Shown here one piece after another: positions 3,344 to 12,001 of a DNA stretch of 12,001 nucleotides (the stretch's first letter is position 1; each line of letters begins with the position of its first letter). Both the position numbers and the translations under genes were made by a program. Under the pieces are notes generated by a model. The model was not told the origin of the DNA and did not search any database. It saw only the letters and a list, made by a program, of their open reading frames with translations. This DNA is from an uncultured Erysipelotrichaceae bacterium (GTDB lineage: Bacteria > Bacillota_I > Bacilli_A > RFN20 > CAG-826), in assembly GCA_902801805.1 (NCBI GenBank), contig CADCJP010000021.1, positions 1-12,001 of the forward strand. Direction: 5' to 3'.

Positions 3344-4414
3344 ATGAAATTCGCTGATAATCACTTTCTAAAAGACGCTATAAACGATGTCATCCGCACC
3401 AATCAAATCAATACTTGGACCGCGGATATCCTCGCTGAAGCTTGTAACTACACTGACTTTTTTAAGATTAATAAAATCAACCAATTCCTAAGGGAAGGTC
3501 ATTCTGTTCAAGATGCAATGATTGATACTTTTTATGATGAATTCAATCTTGATAGAGATGACGAGGAAACAAATGATATCTTTAATGAATTTGCACTAGC
3601 TCGTATCAAATGTTTAGATCCTAAAGAATATCGAGACAATGAATACGCTAAAGCGATTAAAGCCACAGGTAAATTTAACGGCTATTCTTTAAGAATGATT
3701 GATTATGAACCATATCAAACATTCCCATATGATGAGATTAATGTGACTGATGATTATAAAGAATATAGCAATATTGGTTTCTTTAAAGAAAAATTCTCTT
3801 ATTTAGCCCTTTGCCAAGGTAACAATGTTTGGATGTCTCTTAATCCAAATGAAATCGAAACTATGAAACCTTTTATTGATAAGGCTAAAGGTGAAGTTTT
3901 AGTGCTTGGTTTAGGGATGGGTTATGTCCCATTCATGATGATGAATAAACCTGAAGTTAAGCACATCACGATTGTGGAAAAAGATATCAATATTATTACT
4001 TTATTCAAAACCTTAATACTTCCACATTTTGTAAGAAAAGATAAGATTACCATCATCAAAGATGATGCGATTAGTTATTTTGCTAAGCAAAAGAAATATG
4101 ATTATATCTTCGCTGATTTATGGCACGATCCAGAAGATGGCTTAGATTTATTTATTAAACTAAAGAACATTAATAGAAACATTGATTGTTGGTTAGAGAC
4201 TTCTTTAATCGCCTTACTTAGAAGATGCATGATTACTTTAATCGAAGAGTCATTAGACGGATTAGATGAAAAGAACTATAAGAAAGCTAGAAACACCACT
4301 GATAAGGTGATTAATAACTTCTATCAAAGAACAAAAAACCTCGTCATTAATAACGAGGAAGAGTTACATAAGTTATTAAGTGATGAATCACTTATCGATT
4401 TAATTATCGAATAA
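3344..4414 (+). CDS. Rossmann-fold SAM-dependent methyltransferase-like (spermidine-synthase-like) protein
   Basis: A 356-residue protein. Residues about 183-270 show the class I methyltransferase core: glycine-rich motif I VLVLGLGMGYVP (185-196), then 'ITIVEKD' with acidic Glu212 expected to bind the ribose of SAM or decarboxylated SAM, 'ITIIKDDAISYF' (235-246) with the Asp-Asp pair, and 'YDYIFADLWHD' (252-262) in the catalytic-loop position. This order resembles spermidine synthase-like proteins. The first 180 residues are an unrecognised, largely helical domain, so the substrate is unknown. The ATG at 3344 has no ribosome-binding site and a -10-like element 6 bases upstream. The 3' end overlaps the convergent glycosyltransferase gene by 15 bp, and codons at 4333-4358 double as that gene's terminator. 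Methyltransferase versus aminopropyltransferase activity cannot be decided from sequence. Confidence 0.8.
   Translation: MKFADNHFLKDAINDVIRTNQINTWTADILAEACNYTDFFKINKINQFLREGHSVQDAMIDTFYDEFNLDRDDEETNDIFNEFALARIKCLDPKEYRDNEYAKAIKATGKFNGYSLRMIDYEPYQTFPYDEINVTDDYKEYSNIGFFKEKFSYLALCQGNNVWMSLNPNEIETMKPFIDKAKGEVLVLGLGMGYVPFMMMNKPEVKHITIVEKDINIITLFKTLILPHFVRKDKITIIKDDAISYFAKQKKYDYIFADLWHDPEDGLDLFIKLKNINRNIDCWLETSLIALLRRCMITLIEESLDGLDEKNYKKARNTTDKVINNFYQRTKNLVINNEEELHKLLSDESLIDLIIE
4333..4358 (-). terminator. Intrinsic terminator of the glycosyltransferase gene, buried in the methyltransferase-like coding sequence
   Basis: On the minus strand, CCTCGT pairs with ACGAGG (plus a T-G pair) around a 6-base loop, followed at once by six T's (plus-strand A's 4333-4338). 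It lies about 42 bp beyond the minus-strand stop at 4400. On the plus strand it encodes part of 'KNLVINNEEE'. Confidence 0.75.
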
Positions 4415-5188: not shown

Positions 5189-5620
5189 ATGAATCTTAAT
5201 AACTTAAAAGAGAAACTATTAAAAATGGGCGAGAAGATTGGTCTTCAAGTTCATGAAGAAGACGCTAATTCTTTAACACTCCACAGTCAAATCACTGCGA
5301 AAGAATATTTTATTAATTCTGTTTACTGTAGATTTGTGGCCTTCTCTAGCGGCACTATTCACTTATTCTTAACATTTGATGTGATTGAAAGAACATATGA
5401 TAACTTATATTTGATTAACGCTTTTAACGAAAACAATCCTTGGTTTAGAGCGTACATCACTAATATCAAAGATCGTGATTATTTAGAGCTTCACTACGCT
5501 GCAGTGGGTTTAACCCATGAAGATGAAGCTATTGATACATTTGGTTATTTACTTAACGACTTATTAAGTGAAAACACCATGAAGTACTTAAAACCAATCT
5601 TGGATGGCGAACAACAATAA
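5189..5620 (+). CDS. Small hypothetical protein, possibly YbjN-like
   Basis: A 143-residue soluble protein with no signal peptide or membrane segment. An N-terminal helix ('LKEKLLKMGEKIG') is followed by alternating strands ('SLTLHSQI', 'FVAFSSGTIHLFLTFD'), a 'LINAFNENNPWFRAYI' segment, 'DYLELHYAAVG', and a C-terminal helix. This helix, strands, 'N.FN..N.w' order resembles the YbjN / type III chaperone-like fold by recollection only. No catalytic residues are evident. It has a good ribosome site (AGAGGAA, 6 bases) and an extended -10 promoter. The last 17 bp overlap the start of the downstream NERD gene, so the two are co-transcribed and probably translationally coupled. Function unknown. Confidence 0.75.
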   Translation: MNLNNLKEKLLKMGEKIGLQVHEEDANSLTLHSQITAKEYFINSVYCRFVAFSSGTIHLFLTFDVIERTYDNLYLINAFNENNPWFRAYITNIKDRDYLELHYAAVGLTHEDEAIDTFGYLLNDLLSENTMKYLKPILDGEQQ

Positions 5621-6302
5621 AAGAAAACTGAAAAGAGGCGAAGAAGGCGAACGTCTGGTCGCCTCTATTTTAGATAGTGATAAATCTTTTCATCGTTTAA
5701 TTAATAATCTAGTCCTCCTAGGGGACAATCAAGTTTCACATCAAATAGACCATATACTCATTCGTAGTAATGGTATTTTTGTTATTGAGACAAAGAATTA
5801 CTTTGGAAATATCGTAGGGGGAGAAGATGACTCCTATTGGAAAAAGACATTCCCATTTAAAGGGAGAATGAAGACTGAAACATTCCATAATCCTTTAAAA
5901 CAAAACCAATCTCATATCCGTATGATTAAGCGCACTATTGGAAGAGATTATCCCATCTACTGTTTTATCGTTTTAGTTAAAAATAACGGAGACGGGTTAG
6001 ATTTATTCAACGTCTGTGGTCCCGAAGATATCTTGAAAAGAATTAATCTCATTACCATTGATAATCCAATGAATGAATCAACGATTGAAAGTCTTTATAA
6101 CGCTCTTCTATATTCCGAAGCGGATGTGAACGATGAGATGCATTTAGAAAATATTAAGAAGACCATCAAAGATAGAAGAGACCATCAAAAAGAACTGCGC
6201 TTTGCGATTGAAAAGAAAATATGCCCCGACTGTGGGGGCATACTCTCTATTGTGCCTGGTGGTTTGAAATGCACCGGGTGTCATAAGATTATTAAAATTT
6301 AA
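5604..6302 (+). CDS. NERD (nuclease-related) domain protein with C-terminal zinc ribbon
   Basis: A 232-residue protein. The N-terminal 'RGEEGERLVASIL' (11-23) and 'HQIDHILIRSNGIFVIETKNYFG' region (47-68) are typical of the NERD domain. Asp49 and Glu62-x-Lys64 form the D...ExK pattern of the restriction-endonuclease-like fold, and the 'W' of residue 79 fits the family. Residues 204-228 form a zinc ribbon with two CxxC knuckles (Cys207/210 and Cys223/226), as in topoisomerase-type zinc fingers. Known: NERD domains are predicted DNA-processing modules but are biochemically poorly characterised. DNA or RNA binding is inferred. The ATG overlaps the previous gene by 17 bp and has no strong ribosome site of its own, consistent with coupling. 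The 3' end overlaps the convergent anti-sigma-like gene by 4 bp, and the zinc-ribbon codons contain that gene's terminator. Confidence 0.88.
   Translation: MANNNKRKLKRGEEGERLVASILDSDKSFHRLINNLVLLGDNQVSHQIDHILIRSNGIFVIETKNYFGNIVGGEDDSYWKKTFPFKGRMKTETFHNPLKQNQSHIRMIKRTIGRDYPIYCFIVLVKNNGDGLDLFNVCGPEDILKRINLITIDNPMNESTIESLYNALLYSEADVNDEMHLENIKKTIKDRRDHQKELRFAIEKKICPDCGGILSIVPGGLKCTGCHKIIKI
6211..6242 (-). terminator. Intrinsic terminator of the sigma/anti-sigma operon, buried in the NERD zinc-ribbon codons
   Basis: On the minus strand TATGCCCC pairs with GGGGCATA (8 bp, GC-rich) around a 7-base loop, followed by a TTTTCTTTT tail (plus A-rich 6211-6219). It starts 57 bp beyond the minus-strand stop at 6299. 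On the plus strand the hairpin encodes the first CxxC knuckle (CPDCGG) of the NERD protein. Confidence 0.75.
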
Positions 6303-7996
6303 AGTCTTAATGGTTCAGTAATAGGTTTAACTAGTGAGGCTCTGCCACCACTTCTATCTACTACATATTCCGCTCGAGCTTCACCATTATCAACAGTTAA
6401 TAGATATTGCTTAAAACCAAAGTCCATTGACATACGTTGGTGCAAAACAAAGTATGTTGTTGCGTTTTCCATAATCGTTCTAGATTTCACGCTTGGTTCA
6501 CCATCTTCTAAACCAAAATATAGTTGGACGACCTTTCCTTCTGTCGAATAATAAGGGCTCAAACCATTTTTCGCTTCAACGAACGCCACAATTGCGCCGT
6601 TAAGTAAGAATCCTTCGTCTGCATATTTTGGAAGTGAAACACCTTTTAATGAGTCTTGTCTAGTATAAAATCCATCATCGCTTACTTTGTAAACATCTCC
6701 AAAGATTGAATAGAGATAATTGTCTTCTAAATGATAGACGATACCGGTATCGTTTTCGATGTGATTTCCACCTATCATAGCGCCATTAATTCCTTCAAAG
6801 GAAACGGTTAAGTCTTTTTCTACTGGCGTTAGTTCAAAATTCTCACCAAATACTTTGAGAATGCCATCATCAAATGCATACATTCTTTTATCAGTTCCAC
6901 ATAAGATTTCATTTTCTCTTTCAAAGATTAGGGTGTTATCAATAATTTCATGATTTTTATAACTAACAATTTCTTTTTCTCCGCGATAGTTAAAATCTAC
7001 GCCTTCACTTACCAAAACAAAGATTTGACCATATTTATCGCGACGAACATCAGCAATTGTATGATGCCAGTTAAACGAATCAATTATTCCTGCTTCTTCA
7101 GGGATAATGTATCTATAATTCAATCCTTCTTCTTCATCGAAAACAACATCGTAACATTGAGGAATTAAATTGCCATACATCGGATCCACTAAGGCGAAAT
7201 CATCTTTTGTTGGCATAACTTGCATTGTGTAGTTTTTACCACAAGAATACTTATCAACTTGTTTCATCAAATCTTTAAGAGCAAAGACTTTACCCGTTTG
7301 ATTATGAATAACAATTGTTTGCATTACCTCATGATGACAATGGAATCCATTAGGGCACACTATTTCTTGAGCATAATTAACATCTTTCCAGAATTCCCAT
7401 TCTGCATCATCAACATACATCACATAGGTGAAATTCTTTGTCGTGAAGACAGCTGCAGCGTTCGCTAATGTGTCTTGTCTAACTTGTCCACGGCCGTTTG
7501 TGCGCTCATAGACAACTTCTTTAACTGAACCATCATCATTCATGGAAATGAGGACACTAGCTTTTTCTGGATCCCAGTCATAGTCTAATTCCCATTCATA
7601 TAGCTCTTTTTGCTCTTCAGTCCAAGAGTCACTATTGATGCTTGGAGATGATGACTCATCATCTTCATAAGCGGAATTTAGCTTAAAGTTGTCTTTAATT
7701 TTTGCAAAACTCTTTAATTTTGGACGAGCATTTTCTTTATCAGGAGCGGACCAAATACAAAACGCTGAGACTTTATCCATATCCACATAAGTGCCTCTTA
7801 AGCGATTGATAAAGCCACCGATACCACTGGTGCTATTAATAATTGGTACAGCAACCGCAACTGCTGTTGCAACCGCGGCAATTGGAATTGTAATCTTAGC
7901 CCATAAAGGTAAATGACGCTTCCTTGGGTATGGGTTTGGAGTGTAGCTTTCTAATGTTGAATCAATGTGTTTTTTCATTCGTCTTTCAAAGTTCAT
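6299..7996 (-). CDS. Membrane-anchored anti-sigma-like sensor protein with large ectodomain
   Basis: A 565-residue protein. A short basic N-terminus (1-32) is followed by one transmembrane helix (about 34-53, Ala/Val/Ile rich), then about 510 extracytoplasmic residues. Its ATG overlaps the sigma factor's TGA (ATGA), with AGGAG 5 bases upstream, so synthesis is coupled. Position, coupling and topology are those of an anti-sigma factor holding its sigma at the membrane (inference); the N-terminus lacks the HxxxCxxC zinc anti-sigma motif and is shorter than most anti-sigma domains, so alternative sigma-dependent target roles remain open. The ectodomain is beta-rich with recurring 'D-G-hydrophobic' hairpins (about 320-450), perhaps propeller-like. 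It contains a His/Cys cluster: Cys214, His219, Cys220, His221, His222 ('CPNGFHCHHE') and His311-His312, suggestive of metal or redox sensing. I do not recognise the ectodomain family. Confidence 0.75.
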   Translation of the reverse strand: MNFERRMKKHIDSTLESYTPNPYPRKRHLPLWAKITIPIAAVATAVAVAVPIINSTSGIGGFINRLRGTYVDMDKVSAFCIWSAPDKENARPKLKSFAKIKDNFKLNSAYEDDESSSPSINSDSWTEEQKELYEWELDYDWDPEKASVLISMNDDGSVKEVVYERTNGRGQVRQDTLANAAAVFTTKNFTYVMYVDDAEWEFWKDVNYAQEIVCPNGFHCHHEVMQTIVIHNQTGKVFALKDLMKQVDKYSCGKNYTMQVMPTKDDFALVDPMYGNLIPQCYDVVFDEEEGLNYRYIIPEEAGIIDSFNWHHTIADVRRDKYGQIFVLVSEGVDFNYRGEKEIVSYKNHEIIDNTLIFERENEILCGTDKRMYAFDDGILKVFGENFELTPVEKDLTVSFEGINGAMIGGNHIENDTGIVYHLEDNYLYSIFGDVYKVSDDGFYTRQDSLKGVSLPKYADEGFLLNGAIVAFVEAKNGLSPYYSTEGKVVQLYFGLEDGEPSVKSRTIMENATTYFVLHQRMSMDFGFKQYLLTVDNGEARAEYVVDRSGGRASLVKPITEPLRL

Positions 7997-8490
7997 CTTA
8001 ACTCCTTTCTCAGCTTTCCTTTCGCGCTTTCATATAATCTTCTCGCAGTGCTCTCAGAAATGCCTGTTTCAGTAACAATTTCATTCCAAGTATAAGAAAA
8101 GCCGATCTTTAAATAAGTAACGATTGTTTCTTTGTTGGTCAAAAGAGGTTCAAATGTGGAAAGCAATTCATTGGTCTTATCTTCTTCTCCATATATTTCA
8201 TCAATGATGTCACTGGAGGGAATCTCTCTTTGCTTCCCGAGGAAATCTAAGGCCTGATTCTTTGCAATTGAGGCAACATACGATTTAAAACTTTTAGGAT
8301 TTTTCACTTCGTGACGATGCTCAACCACTTTGATGAATGATTCAGAAAGAACATCTTCAGTGTCATATCTCGAAGATATATATGAAGCGATGATAAAGTA
8401 CATGAGGTTCTTATATTGCAAATATACTTTTTCAACCGCACTATCTTCACCTTTAAGAAATTTATCGAATAGCCTTTTTGATATTTCCAC
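7993..8490 (-). CDS. ECF-type RNA polymerase sigma factor
   Basis: A 165-residue protein from the GTG at 8490. An in-frame GTG at 8505 would give 170, but AGAGG lies 7 bases before the 8490 codon and nothing comparable precedes 8505. The sigma-2 region spans about residues 10-65: 'LYLQY'-like 'VYLQYKNLMYFI' and the -10 recognition helix 'YDTEDVLSESFIKVVEH'. A short linker leads to the sigma-4 region (about 115-163), where 'YTWNEIVTETGISESTARRLYESAKGKLRKEL' forms a helix-turn-helix for -35 binding. No sigma-3 region is present, so it is ECF class. Known role: directing RNA polymerase to a small regulon after release from an anti-sigma factor. The overlapping downstream membrane protein is the likely antagonist. 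Candidate promoters and a palindrome lie upstream at 8512-8548. TGA as the stop supports the standard genetic code. Confidence 0.92.
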   Translation of the reverse strand: MEISKRLFDKFLKGEDSAVEKVYLQYKNLMYFIIASYISSRYDTEDVLSESFIKVVEHRHEVKNPKSFKSYVASIAKNQALDFLGKQREIPSSDIIDEIYGEEDKTNELLSTFEPLLTNKETIVTYLKIGFSYTWNEIVTETGISESTARRLYESAKGKLRKELR

Positions 8491-8511
8491 GTTTTTGCCT
8501 CTCACCTATAA

Positions 8512-8932: not shown

Positions 8933-9655
8933 TTATTTCACTAAGCTATAAGCATCTTCATCAACATAGATTGTGCAATCTGGATGTTTTTGAAGAATGG
9001 AGCATGGAACTTCTTCGGTCATTGGACCTTTTAGTAAGTTATAGATTGCTTGTGCTTTGTTTTTACCAGTGGCGATAAGAACAATCTTTCTAGCGTTCAT
9101 AATGCTCTTTAAACCCATAGTGACCGCTTTAGTTGGAACTTCAGAGATATCATTGAATAATCTGGAATTATCTTTGATGGTTTGTTCTGTGAGTTCTGCA
9201 ACATGGGTTAAAGAATCAAATGGAGTGCCTGGTTCATTAAATGCGATGTGACCATCACTACCAATACCTAAGATTTGGAGATCAATGCCACCGAAAGAGG
9301 CGATTTCCGCGTCATATTGATTAGCGTAAGCTAAATAATCACCAACACCTTTTAAAACGTGTGTACGCGCTTTATCGATATCTAAACCATCGAATAAGTA
9401 TTTGTTCATGAAGTAACGATATGATTGATCATGTGTTCCTTCTAAACCGATGTATTCATCAAGGTTGAATGTCGCGACATCCTTAAAGGAGACGCGACCT
9501 TCTTTACAGGCCTTAATCATATTCGCATATACTTCAATTGGGGATGTACCTGTCGCTAAGCCTAAAACACTGTTTGGTTTAGCTTGCACTTGTTTGATAA
9601 ATTCTTCAGCGATAAGCTTGCTGATTTCTTCATTACTGCCAACGACAACTTTCAT
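8933..9655 (-). CDS. nagB: Glucosamine-6-phosphate deaminase
   Basis: A 240-residue protein, the length of the short Firmicutes NagB type. It interconverts GlcN-6-P with fructose-6-P and ammonia in the cytoplasm. Motifs: phosphate-binding 'GLATGTSP' (32-39), 'FNLDEY' (63-68) with Asp66, and 'GIGSDGHIAFNEPG' (130-143) with Asp134, His136 and Glu141, matching the E. coli catalytic residues Asp72, Asp141, His143 and Glu148. C-terminal 'ATGKNKAQAI' (195-204) is also typical. The C-terminal allosteric extension of the E. coli enzyme is absent, which in the family goes with lack of GlcNAc-6-P activation. It begins 9 bp after the previous stop, as the last gene of a three-gene operon. AAGAGG lies 12 bases before the ATG, longer than usual. 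It is followed by a strong terminator. Confidence 0.96.
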   Translation of the reverse strand: MKVVVGSNEEISKLIAEEFIKQVQAKPNSVLGLATGTSPIEVYANMIKACKEGRVSFKDVATFNLDEYIGLEGTHDQSYRYFMNKYLFDGLDIDKARTHVLKGVGDYLAYANQYDAEIASFGGIDLQILGIGSDGHIAFNEPGTPFDSLTHVAELTEQTIKDNSRLFNDISEVPTKAVTMGLKSIMNARKIVLIATGKNKAQAIYNLLKGPMTEEVPCSILQKHPDCTIYVDEDAYSLVK

Positions 9656-9664
9656 AATTTTCGA

Positions 9665-10339
9665 CTACCTCTTTTCTTTGACAACAATATTATCTTTTGC
9701 TTTATAAATGCTATTTTCTGGGACAACACCTCTCACCATACTTAATGGATAGACTTGAGAATGTTGACCAATGACTGTACCTGGATTTAAAACGGATTGA
9801 CAACCAATATCCGCATAGTCGCCTAAGATAGCGCCTATTTTTCTTAATCCAGTTTCATAATCTTTTTCACCATGAATGACGATGTTCTTACCATCACTCT
9901 TTAGGTTAGAGCAGATACTACCCGCGCCCATATGAGCGTAGTTACCAAGAATACTATCACCAACGTAGGAATAATGTGGGACTTGGACGTGATATAAGAT
10001 AATCGCGTTTTTAAATTCGCATGAATTACCTAAGACACAGTTATCTCCACAGATGAGATTACCTCTGATATAGGCGCCTGGTCTAATTTCAGTATTGCTA
10101 CCGATAATGGCTGGAGGAATGATAGTCGCTGTTTCAGCAATCTTGACATTCTCACCCACTAGAACACCTTCTTTTAAGACGGTATATCCTGGAATACCTT
10201 CTTCAAGTAATTCCGCGATTAATTCTTTAATATGTGGGAGCATTTCCCATGGATATTCATATTTATCAAAGAACTCTTTCATAAATGATGGTTCTTCGAT
10301 ATTGAATAAATCTCTTGTTAAAACAGCTTTCTTATTCAT
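9665..10339 (-). CDS. Left-handed beta-helix acyltransferase, GlmU C-terminal-like (no uridylyltransferase domain)
   Basis: A 224-residue protein from the ATG at 10339; an upstream in-frame start would extend it 19 residues into glmM, but homologues I recall begin near 'LTRDLFN'. A short helical N-terminus (1-50) precedes hexapeptide-repeat coils from about 55 to 210 ('IIGSNTEIRPGAYIRGNLI...'). The 'PHYSYVGDSILGNYAHMGAG' segment (121-140) matches the GlmU acetyltransferase active-site region, with His122 in the position of the catalytic His. Known role in GlmU: acetylation of GlcN-1-P. The N-terminal pyrophosphorylase domain of GlmU is absent, although such proteins are often labelled UDP-GlcNAc pyrophosphorylase. 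The ATG overlaps the end of glmM by 8 bp, and nagB follows after 9 bp, so a role in the same amino-sugar route is likely. An acyl or sugar specificity other than acetyl-GlcN-1-P is possible. Confidence 0.88.
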   Translation of the reverse strand: MNKKAVLTRDLFNIEEPSFMKEFFDKYEYPWEMLPHIKELIAELLEEGIPGYTVLKEGVLVGENVKIAETATIIPPAIIGSNTEIRPGAYIRGNLICGDNCVLGNSCEFKNAIILYHVQVPHYSYVGDSILGNYAHMGAGSICSNLKSDGKNIVIHGEKDYETGLRKIGAILGDYADIGCQSVLNPGTVIGQHSQVYPLSMVRGVVPENSIYKAKDNIVVKEKR

Positions 10340-11975
10340 CGATGACAAAGCCTCTTTTCTTGACGACGTTATAGATTTTTTCGATATATTCATCACAGCC
10401 TTGTAATGTTGGATATTCCACCATAATACGAATGACTGGTTCAGTACCGGATTGTCTTAATAACGCTCTACCGTTATCACCGATTTCTTTATTCACTTCG
10501 TCGAACTTAGCTTTAACAGCTTCGTCTTCAACAGCAGCATTCTTATCAGTGACTCTAACGTTCTTTGTCTTTTGTGGTAATAATTTCACTGGGGCCACGA
10601 GTTTAGATAAGGAATCTTTTCTTTCAAGCATTTCTTCAGCCACCATGATAGCGGTTAAAACACCATCACCTGTAGTAGCGTATTTTCTAATAATGATATG
10701 ACCAGATTGTTCACCACCGAGAGTATAACCATCACTCATCATCTTTTCAAAGACGAATCTATCACCAACTTTGGTTCTAATCATCTTGCAACCAATACCT
10801 TTAAGAGCTTTTTCAAGACCACTATTGGACATGATTGTGGCAACGACTGTGTCGTTATCAAGAGAACCTTCATTCTTAAGTTTATTGGCTAATAAGTACA
10901 TGATCTTATCACCATCTACTTCTTTACCATTTTCATCAACGGCAATACATCTATCAGCGTCACCATCGAAGGCAAAACCAACATCGAGTTTTTCTTCTTT
11001 AACAAACTTACAGAACTTTTCAATGTGAGTACTACCAGCATCAACATTGATGTTTAAGCCATCTGGGCGGTTATTAATAATATAGACTTGCGCGCCTAAG
11101 GCTTCGAAAACACTCTTAGCAATCATCCAAGAAGCACCATTCGCGGTATCTAAACCGATTCTAAGTTTCTTCATGGAGTGTTTTGCTAAGGAGATTAAAT
11201 AACCAATGTATCTATTTCTACCTGAAGAGTAGTCATTAATTGTGCCGATATCACCACGTTTAGCGAATGGTAAATCGTTTTCATCACCTTCTAAACCTAG
11301 GGTTTTGAAATCACCATCTAAATAGGCTTCAGCGAGATAAGCAACACCATCTTCAAGTTTTTCACCATTACCGTTAATGACTTTAATACCATTATCGTAG
11401 AATGGGTTATGAGAAGCGGTAATCATGACACCACAGTCAAAGCAGTCTTGTCTTACGATGTAAGAGACTGATGGAGTGGTTGTGACGTGAAGTAATTCAA
11501 CATCAGCGCCTGATGATGCTGCGCCTGCGGCGACAGCGTATTCAAGCATATAGGAAGATCTTCTGGTATCTTTACCAATGACGATCTTTGGTCTATAGCC
11601 TGGTTTTTGCATATTATATTTAGGATTAGCGTAGAACCAACCTAAGAATCTACCAATCTTATAAGCTTTATCAGAATTTAATAATTCGTTAGCCTCACCT
11701 CTAAAACCATCAGTGCCAAAGTATTTGGTTTTGACGTTTTCACTTGGAAGTTCAACTTTCTTGCCACGATGGATGACGATGTTATCATCAATCAATTCAT
11801 CAGCGGTAATTTTGAATAACACACATAAATCTTTAATAGTATTTAAAGGAGGAAGTGTGTCATTGTTTTCCCATTTAGATAAGGATTGTCTGGATGTTTT
11901 TAAAGCTTTCGCTAGTTCTTCCTGAGAAATGTTGTTAGCAATTCTAAGGTGAACGATTTTTTCACCAATTGTCAT
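10332..11975 (-). CDS. glmM: XRE helix-turn-helix domain fused to phosphoglucosamine mutase
   Basis: A 547-residue protein; GlmM alone is normally about 445-450. Residues 1-63 are a complete XRE/HTH_3 DNA-binding domain ('SQEELAKALKTSRQSLSKWE', 17-36, then 'TADELI'). After an 18-residue basic linker, GlmM begins at 'TKYFGTDGFRG' (83-93). All mutase signatures are intact: phospho-Ser loop 'TASHNP' with Ser188 (186-191), Mg-binding DGDADR (337-342), sugar-binding GEQSGH (421-426) and phosphate-binding RQSGTEP (507-513). The enzyme converts GlcN-6-P to GlcN-1-P for peptidoglycan precursors. AAGGGAG lies 11 bases before the ATG. I see no start codon with a ribosome site between the HTH and the enzyme, so the fusion appears obligatory. 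First gene of an operon with the beta-helix acyltransferase and nagB; its promoter lies outside the window. The Ser preference 'TASHNP' and GEQSGH fit GlmM better than phosphomannomutase. A regulatory role of the HTH is inference. Confidence 0.95.
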   Translation of the reverse strand: MTIGEKIVHLRIANNISQEELAKALKTSRQSLSKWENNDTLPPLNTIKDLCVLFKITADELIDDNIVIHRGKKVELPSENVKTKYFGTDGFRGEANELLNSDKAYKIGRFLGWFYANPKYNMQKPGYRPKIVIGKDTRRSSYMLEYAVAAGAASSGADVELLHVTTTPSVSYIVRQDCFDCGVMITASHNPFYDNGIKVINGNGEKLEDGVAYLAEAYLDGDFKTLGLEGDENDLPFAKRGDIGTINDYSSGRNRYIGYLISLAKHSMKKLRIGLDTANGASWMIAKSVFEALGAQVYIINNRPDGLNINVDAGSTHIEKFCKFVKEEKLDVGFAFDGDADRCIAVDENGKEVDGDKIMYLLANKLKNEGSLDNDTVVATIMSNSGLEKALKGIGCKMIRTKVGDRFVFEKMMSDGYTLGGEQSGHIIIRKYATTGDGVLTAIMVAEEMLERKDSLSKLVAPVKLLPQKTKNVRVTDKNAAVEDEAVKAKFDEVNKEIGDNGRALLRQSGTEPVIRIMVEYPTLQGCDEYIEKIYNVVKKRGFVIDE

Positions 11976-12001
11976 ATTATGTATGGCTCCCTTGTATGTG
12001 A

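Follow-up and report, generated by a model that had tools for sequence, protein, structure and literature searches.

The fusion gene and its operon

The window, the whole 12,001-nucleotide stretch of DNA that was analyzed, carries at one end a minus-strand gene that encodes an XRE helix-turn-helix (HTH) domain and a complete GlmM in one frame. The operon order from the fusion is glmM, acetyltransferase, nagB, with the following features.

10332..11975, minus strand: XRE-GlmM fusion gene, 547 amino acids, a single open reading frame with no internal stop (Pfam, NCBIfam)
11778..11975, minus strand: XRE helix-turn-helix domain, residues 1 to 66 (Pfam HTH_3/HTH_19; AlphaFold helices 3-13, 18-24, 29-36, 44-54, and 58-62)
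11868..11894, minus strand: presumed recognition helix SRQSLSKWE, residues 28 to 36 (conservation in 49 fused proteins)
11727..11777, minus strand: linker, residues 67 to 83, of varying length among fused proteins (AlphaFold model; fused-protein comparison)
10335..11726, minus strand: complete GlmM (PGM_PMM I to IV), residues 84 to 547 (Pfam, NCBIfam; Foldseek best match 7ojr)
11412..11414, minus strand: codon of the presumed catalytic Ser188 (TASHNP), invariant among 49 fused proteins
11987..11993, minus strand: Shine-Dalgarno-like AAGGGAG, 11 bases before the ATG of the fusion (read from the sequence)
11976..12001, minus strand: 26 bases of the 5' region of the fusion, all that the window contains
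9665..10339, minus strand: stand-alone GlmU-C-like hexapeptide acetyltransferase; its probable start codon, ATG 10339, overlaps the glmM end (listed open reading frame start, GTG at 10396)
8933..9655, minus strand: nagB, glucosamine-6-phosphate deaminase (TIGR00502, 262.3 bits against a cutoff of 236.9)

Residues 10 to 61 of the fusion match HTH_3 in Pfam (E value of 2e-12; 47.3 bits against a gathering cutoff of 23), which places this part among the XRE/HTH_3 regulators, and a conserved palindromic operator is found in relatives, outside the window itself. PGM/PMM domains I to IV are all matched within residues 84 to 535, and residues 86 to 539 are identified as glmM by NCBIfam TIGR01455 (490.3 bits against a cutoff of 447.55). 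This body belongs to the GlmM family, with the catalytic serine and the metal-, sugar-, and phosphate-binding motifs intact, and its best Foldseek match is the GlmM of Bacillus subtilis (7ojr). The AlphaFold2 model of the fusion, computed using 49 fused relatives, has a mean pLDDT of 86.6 and presents five HTH helices and a weaker linker. In the alignment of the 49 fused proteins, Ser188 is invariant, and apart from A340 and Q508, every residue of TASHNP, DGDADR, GEQSGH, and RQSGTEP is either invariant or conserved at 90% or more; the catalytic role of Ser188 and the roles of these motifs are presumably those of the family. Residues 28 to 36, which we take to be the recognition helix as in other XRE proteins, contain the invariant R29, Q30, S33, W35, and E36. 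The single-frame union of an XRE HTH with an intact GlmM, which the sequence-only reading had proposed, is thus confirmed by Pfam, NCBIfam, and motif conservation, and one chain holds the enzyme and the DNA-binding domain expected of a trigger enzyme, both intact by sequence. Sequence and fold searches of the PDB retrieved GlmM-type relatives, with no solved XRE-GlmM fusion among the matches listed.

The acetyltransferase is closest in PDB sequence to the C-terminal parts of 5z09 and 2ggo. It is present in 44 and nagB in 27 of the 51 rows, which comprise 50 loci plus the window, as counted by longest-frame gene finding on fetched stretches of which some are short; in G026, glmS directly follows. 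Among 26 fused draft genomes, GlmS passes its cutoff in 8 (14/14 known genomes), bifunctional GlmU in none (9 of 14 known genomes, the cutoff being strict), and a glmS ribozyme is found in none (2 of 4 unfused genomes have one). These absences are soft because the genomes are drafts. NagB is present in 24 of the 26 fused genomes and in 27 of 30 when the four unfused genomes are added, and as a guess, it may feed the pathway backwards, supplying GlcN-6-P. GlmU is apparently split, with the acetyltransferase half beside glmM and a uridylyltransferase-like half elsewhere in six of the 26 fused genomes.

Elsewhere in the window lie a sigma-70 region 2 factor followed by a 565-amino-acid protein with no Pfam match, perhaps its anti-sigma partner (6299 to 8505), a NERD nuclease-related domain protein (5604 to 6302), and a spermine-synthase-like domain protein that scores below the cutoffs of the named NCBIfam enzymes (3344 to 4414).

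The fusion is widespread in uncultured gut and rumen bacteria

The HTH is present in the best 120 protein matches of 8,000 scored, as read from the listing. Among 80 genome loci, 50 are complete one-frame fusions, 28 are unfused, and 2 (L030 and L041), truncated at contig ends, were excluded from the fused set. A full-length match running from the HTH through GlmM occurs in 64 of 279 sampled genomes from the order to which the window's nearest relative belongs and in 28 of 295 from that of one clostridial member; the 50 fused loci and the 28 plus 64 fused genomes are overlapping sets. Because the HTH recurs in the listed matches and the fusion reads in one frame in these loci and genomes, no missed stop or frameshift lies behind it, and the suspicion that it might be confined to this assembly is refuted. 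The architecture is instead conserved across two orders, and the XRE-GlmM fusion is real and widespread in uncultured gut and rumen bacteria. A literature search, with most subscription journals outside its coverage, found no description of it.

The Shine-Dalgarno score of the fusion start in the window is 2 of 6, and at least 4 is reached at the real start in 90 of 109 rows. From codon 46 to the GlmM domain, the window offers no internal start with a Shine-Dalgarno match of 4 of 6, and internal starts with a match of at least 5 of 6 occur in only 5 of the 109 rows, in agreement with the earlier claim that no usable internal start separates the domains. The one-frame fusions across loci and genomes rule out an assembly artifact, a missed stop, or a frameshift, and an internal start is rejected as well.

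In 9 of 10 fused genomes, the fusion is the sole GlmM-like gene; the tenth, G009, has a second at 37%. One genome, G265, has two GlmM genes, one fused and one unfused (L120 and L132), the unfused copy being without the operator described below. A quick tree built from the GlmM domains of 51 fused and 27 unfused proteins, in which 28 of 75 inner branches are weak and from which L072 was left out because the motif was not found, requires three changes, which a single gain and two losses would explain. Unfused L051, L053, and L054 are nested inside the fused clade and have seemingly lost the HTH in two events.

Operators upstream of the fused genes and their likely binder

The clostridial fused genes are preceded by a palindrome with the consensus GCAACYnnnRGTTGC. 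In the first set, 30 of 34 clostridial fused genes and 5 of 16 from Bacilli have exact GCAAC-N5-GTTGC (O1) in front of them, and shuffles never produced it. It is found upstream of 0 of 28 unfused glmM genes (26 of them sound, since just 30 upstream bases are available for L062 and the start of the L072 gene is uncertain) and 0 of 9 further ones. A hold-out of 24 fused loci, none more than 83% identical to the first set and with the repeats L101, L106, and L125 (of L017, L029, and L045) left out, presents the exact site in 18; when one mismatch is allowed, the count rises to 23, with shuffles near 0. The same palindrome is recovered by a motif search with no preset pattern, with a log-likelihood of 345 versus 22 to 24 in three shuffles; even-width searches returned a weaker GGAAACT-like palindrome. 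L187 and L131 were not scored in these upstream-region counts. A chance palindrome is ruled out by the shuffles, the hold-out, and the unfused controls.

O1 is often accompanied by further sites at fixed spacings. A weaker copy, O2, follows 21 to 24 bp downstream at 17 of the 32 loci of the first set and at 10 of the 23 in the hold-out, versus 0 to 1 in nine other position ranges. A third element, O3 (GYAAA-N6-TTTRC), first spotted by eye in the first set and then tested on the hold-out, starts 73 to 77 bp upstream of O1 at 14 of the 32 loci of the first set (0 to 1 in other position ranges) and at 6 of the 22 in the hold-out (0 to 2). The region upstream of L017 exemplifies this arrangement, with GCAACCTGCGGTTGC and sites 22 to 23 bp downstream and approximately 74 bp upstream. 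The center of O1 falls at -64 to -67 of the predicted promoter in 43 of 55 clostridial loci, which sets O2 at about -43. This placement resembles the geometry of lambda cI on the PRM promoter, and activation is therefore possible in Clostridia.

The operator and promoter of the window copy lie outside the window, and we infer them from L001 to L004, L152, L154, L155, and L157 to L160, which carry GTAAA-N6-TTTAC or GTAAA-N6-TTGAC 74 to 87 bases before the start; the candidate site upstream of L001 is GTAAACAAAACTTTAC. For the window copy, a GTAAA-N6-TTTAC-like site is predicted some 75 to 90 bases ahead of its ATG. With at most one mismatch, GTAAA-N6-TT(T/G)AC is present in 15 of 15 and 23 of 34 Bacilli loci (shuffle means of 0.85 and 2.4), the Bacilli hold-out having been cleared of identical N termini only, so that some loci are close to the first set. 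Relatives thus share an inverted repeat upstream of these operons, as envisaged in the sequence-only reading, of the GCAAC type in Clostridia and of the GTAAA type in the window's clade. Of 35 Bacilli rows, 15 have the predicted -35 element within the GTAAA site, 17 have the best promoter elsewhere, and 3 have none. In the nearest 9 promoter-scored rows, the -35 element overlaps the site in 3 (L003, L004, and L160), and in the other 6 the best promoter starts 24 to 31 bases from the start of the site. Many other Bacilli also have GCAAC-N5-GTTGC approximately 22 to 34 bases before the ATG, inside the likely mRNA, a position that suits repression; for the window's clade, the balance leans modestly toward repression. 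The same position would fit a palindrome acting as RNA, that is, as a hairpin, attenuator, or terminator instead of a protein-binding site, as would the genomic copies located elsewhere in terminator-like hairpins. Such a role is extremely unlikely, since the clostridial site lies upstream of the predicted promoter, keeps fixed spacings to further sites, and is common to free XRE genes.

These free-standing XREs provide an indication of which protein recognizes the operator. Those with an SRQ..SKWE helix have GCAAC-N5-GTTGC with at most one mismatch in 12 of 12 cases (5 found through the site and 7 not), as does a further RQ-helix XRE, L213, and a weaker second site lies 21 to 22 bp on in at least five such loci (by eye). 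XREs of the same genomes with other helices have the operator in 0 of 11 cases (15 of 20 XRE regions were scored). Comparison of 8 of 8 independent RQ-helix XREs with these 0 of 11 gives a Fisher p of approximately 1e-5, calculated by hand and ignoring kinship. Because the operator in the window's clade is GTAAA and not GCAAC, the comparison applies there only indirectly. The free XREs L139 to L150 share GCAAC-N5-GTTGC upstream of their own genes and look autoregulated. A search of 295 genomes for the composite O1-O2 pattern retrieved 12 places (reversed control, 0), consisting of 6 fused glmM genes, 4 free SRQAVSKWE XREs, one nagB (L231), and one oxidoreductase gene (L230), the last two both in fused genomes. 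The latter (L230 1501 to 2970, fused genome G283) is a Gfo/Idh/MocA oxidoreductase gene with the composite 249 bases before it.

The operators might be real and yet be bound by such a separate XRE with the same helix, leaving the fused HTH irrelevant. A relative of those operator-bearing free XREs does occur in 12 of 26 fused genomes, including all 8 Bacilli tested, so that cross-talk is possible in Bacilli, and in G001 both exact GCAAC sites among the matches listed belong to free XREs. This explanation is nevertheless quite improbable: at 1e-20, such a relative was found in only 4 of the 18 clostridial fused genomes; among the matches listed, G005, G019, and G024 have no exact operator copy other than that of glmM; and unfused glmM genes are without the operator.

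A vestigial or purely structural HTH that does not bind DNA, the alternative the earlier reading had left standing, is very unlikely. The HTH does evolve faster than the enzyme (omega of 0 to 0.33 versus 0.01 to 0.08, with two of 15 pairs saturated for the HTH), the linker is variable, and the three nested members lack the domain. However, omega for the HTH does not exceed 0.18 in 12 of the 13 pairs for which it could be computed (the remaining pair, 0.33), indicating purifying selection as that reading had anticipated, the recognition-helix residues are invariant in 49 proteins, and the operator tracks the HTH: it is present where the HTH is present, and in L051, L053, and L054 (two events only) it is absent along with it. 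The fused HTH is accordingly viewed, from conserved sequence, as the likely binder of the operators.

Binding would reach little beyond the fusion's own operon. Among 17 detached nagB or nagB-like loci in fused genomes, one has a clear site (G004, GTAAA type) and two have weak ones (G023 and G026); G253 adds one further clear nagB site. No site is present at the other 14 of these loci, at 7 of 7 detached glmS, or at 3 unfused nagB. Operators at genes of the same pathway, a further mark of a trigger enzyme, are thus found at the own operon and at detached nagB in G253 and G004. A broad amino-sugar regulon is mostly ruled out, since detached nagB mostly, and glmS always, is without a site; XRE-GlmM would be no general amino-sugar regulator, with autoregulation as its main role. 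Second sites of the Y/R form number at least 14; of those fetched (L081 to L094) and placed by eye, 4 precede free XREs, 4 sit in terminator-like hairpins, 5 fall within coding frames, and 1 lies before an APH-family kinase gene (L087). The last, in fused genome G023 (L087 2020 to 3370), consists of GCAACCAACGGTTGC and an O2-like half upstream of the kinase gene.

Proposed mechanism and comparison with known systems

XRE-GlmM probably binds DNA and regulates its own operon. Autoregulation is very likely because conserved sites fitting this domain type sit before its own gene, and control of the glmM-acyltransferase-nagB operon, suggested in the earlier reading, gains good support from these operators. 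The protein would be both the GlmM of the cell and a sequence-specific DNA-binding protein controlling glmM, the GlcN-1-P-type acetyltransferase, and nagB. The HTH and its operators were most probably taken over from a free-standing XRE gene that regulated itself, and the similar layout of free XRE genes points to a joint capture of HTH and promoter. In relatives, the GlmM dimer forms through domain 1, according to PMC8573169. This domain adjoins the attachment point of the HTH, and a GlmM dimer would place two HTHs over one palindrome.

That the substrate, product, or phospho-enzyme state changes DNA binding is a guess whose chances fall a little short of even, and the variable linker length speaks mildly against tight or rigid allosteric coupling. 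A more elaborate and rather doubtful proposal is that XRE-GlmM binds three phased operators (approximately -138, -65, and -43 in Clostridia) cooperatively and with looping, under the control of its ligand or phospho-enzyme state. It would then take the place of the glmS ribozyme in sensing hexosamine, in lineages for which searches mostly did not find GlmS or bifunctional GlmU and in which NagB may feed the pathway. GlmM makes an essential cell-wall precursor. If it also binds DNA at its own promoter, XRE-GlmM would be a direct, protein-only link from wall precursor supply to transcription, in lineages in whose draft genomes the glmS ribozyme, bifunctional GlmU, and often GlmS were not found. 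The operators make autoregulation testable with purified protein and short DNA.

The fusion shares its whole catalytic body with stand-alone GlmM, with 47% identity to the B. subtilis protein (7ojr) and 44% to that of Staphylococcus aureus (6gyz) by fold match, and stand-alone GlmM binds the cyclase CdaA, as PMC8573169 describes. Unlike the fusion, 7ojr and 6gyz have no HTH. The free XREs with the SRQAVSKWE helix (L139 to L150) share the recognition-helix residues and the GCAAC-N5-GTTGC operator, but they have no enzyme domain and a different C-terminal part. The glmS ribozyme provides RNA-based feedback on GlcN-6-P and cell-wall precursor supply. XRE-GlmM may, as a guess, exert the same feedback as this ribozyme and as RapZ, whereas those two systems are RNA or adaptor based. 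BirA and PutA are DNA-binding trigger enzymes, in which, as predicted from sequence for XRE-GlmM, a metabolic enzyme is its own transcription regulator, although the folds and pathways are unrelated. NadR fuses an XRE-type HTH to enzymes of NAD biosynthesis and has a known effector. As in NadR, the HTH of XRE-GlmM is N-terminal to biosynthetic enzyme domains and palindromic operators lie at genes of the pathway, but the enzyme and pathway are different, and XRE-GlmM would act mainly on its own operon.
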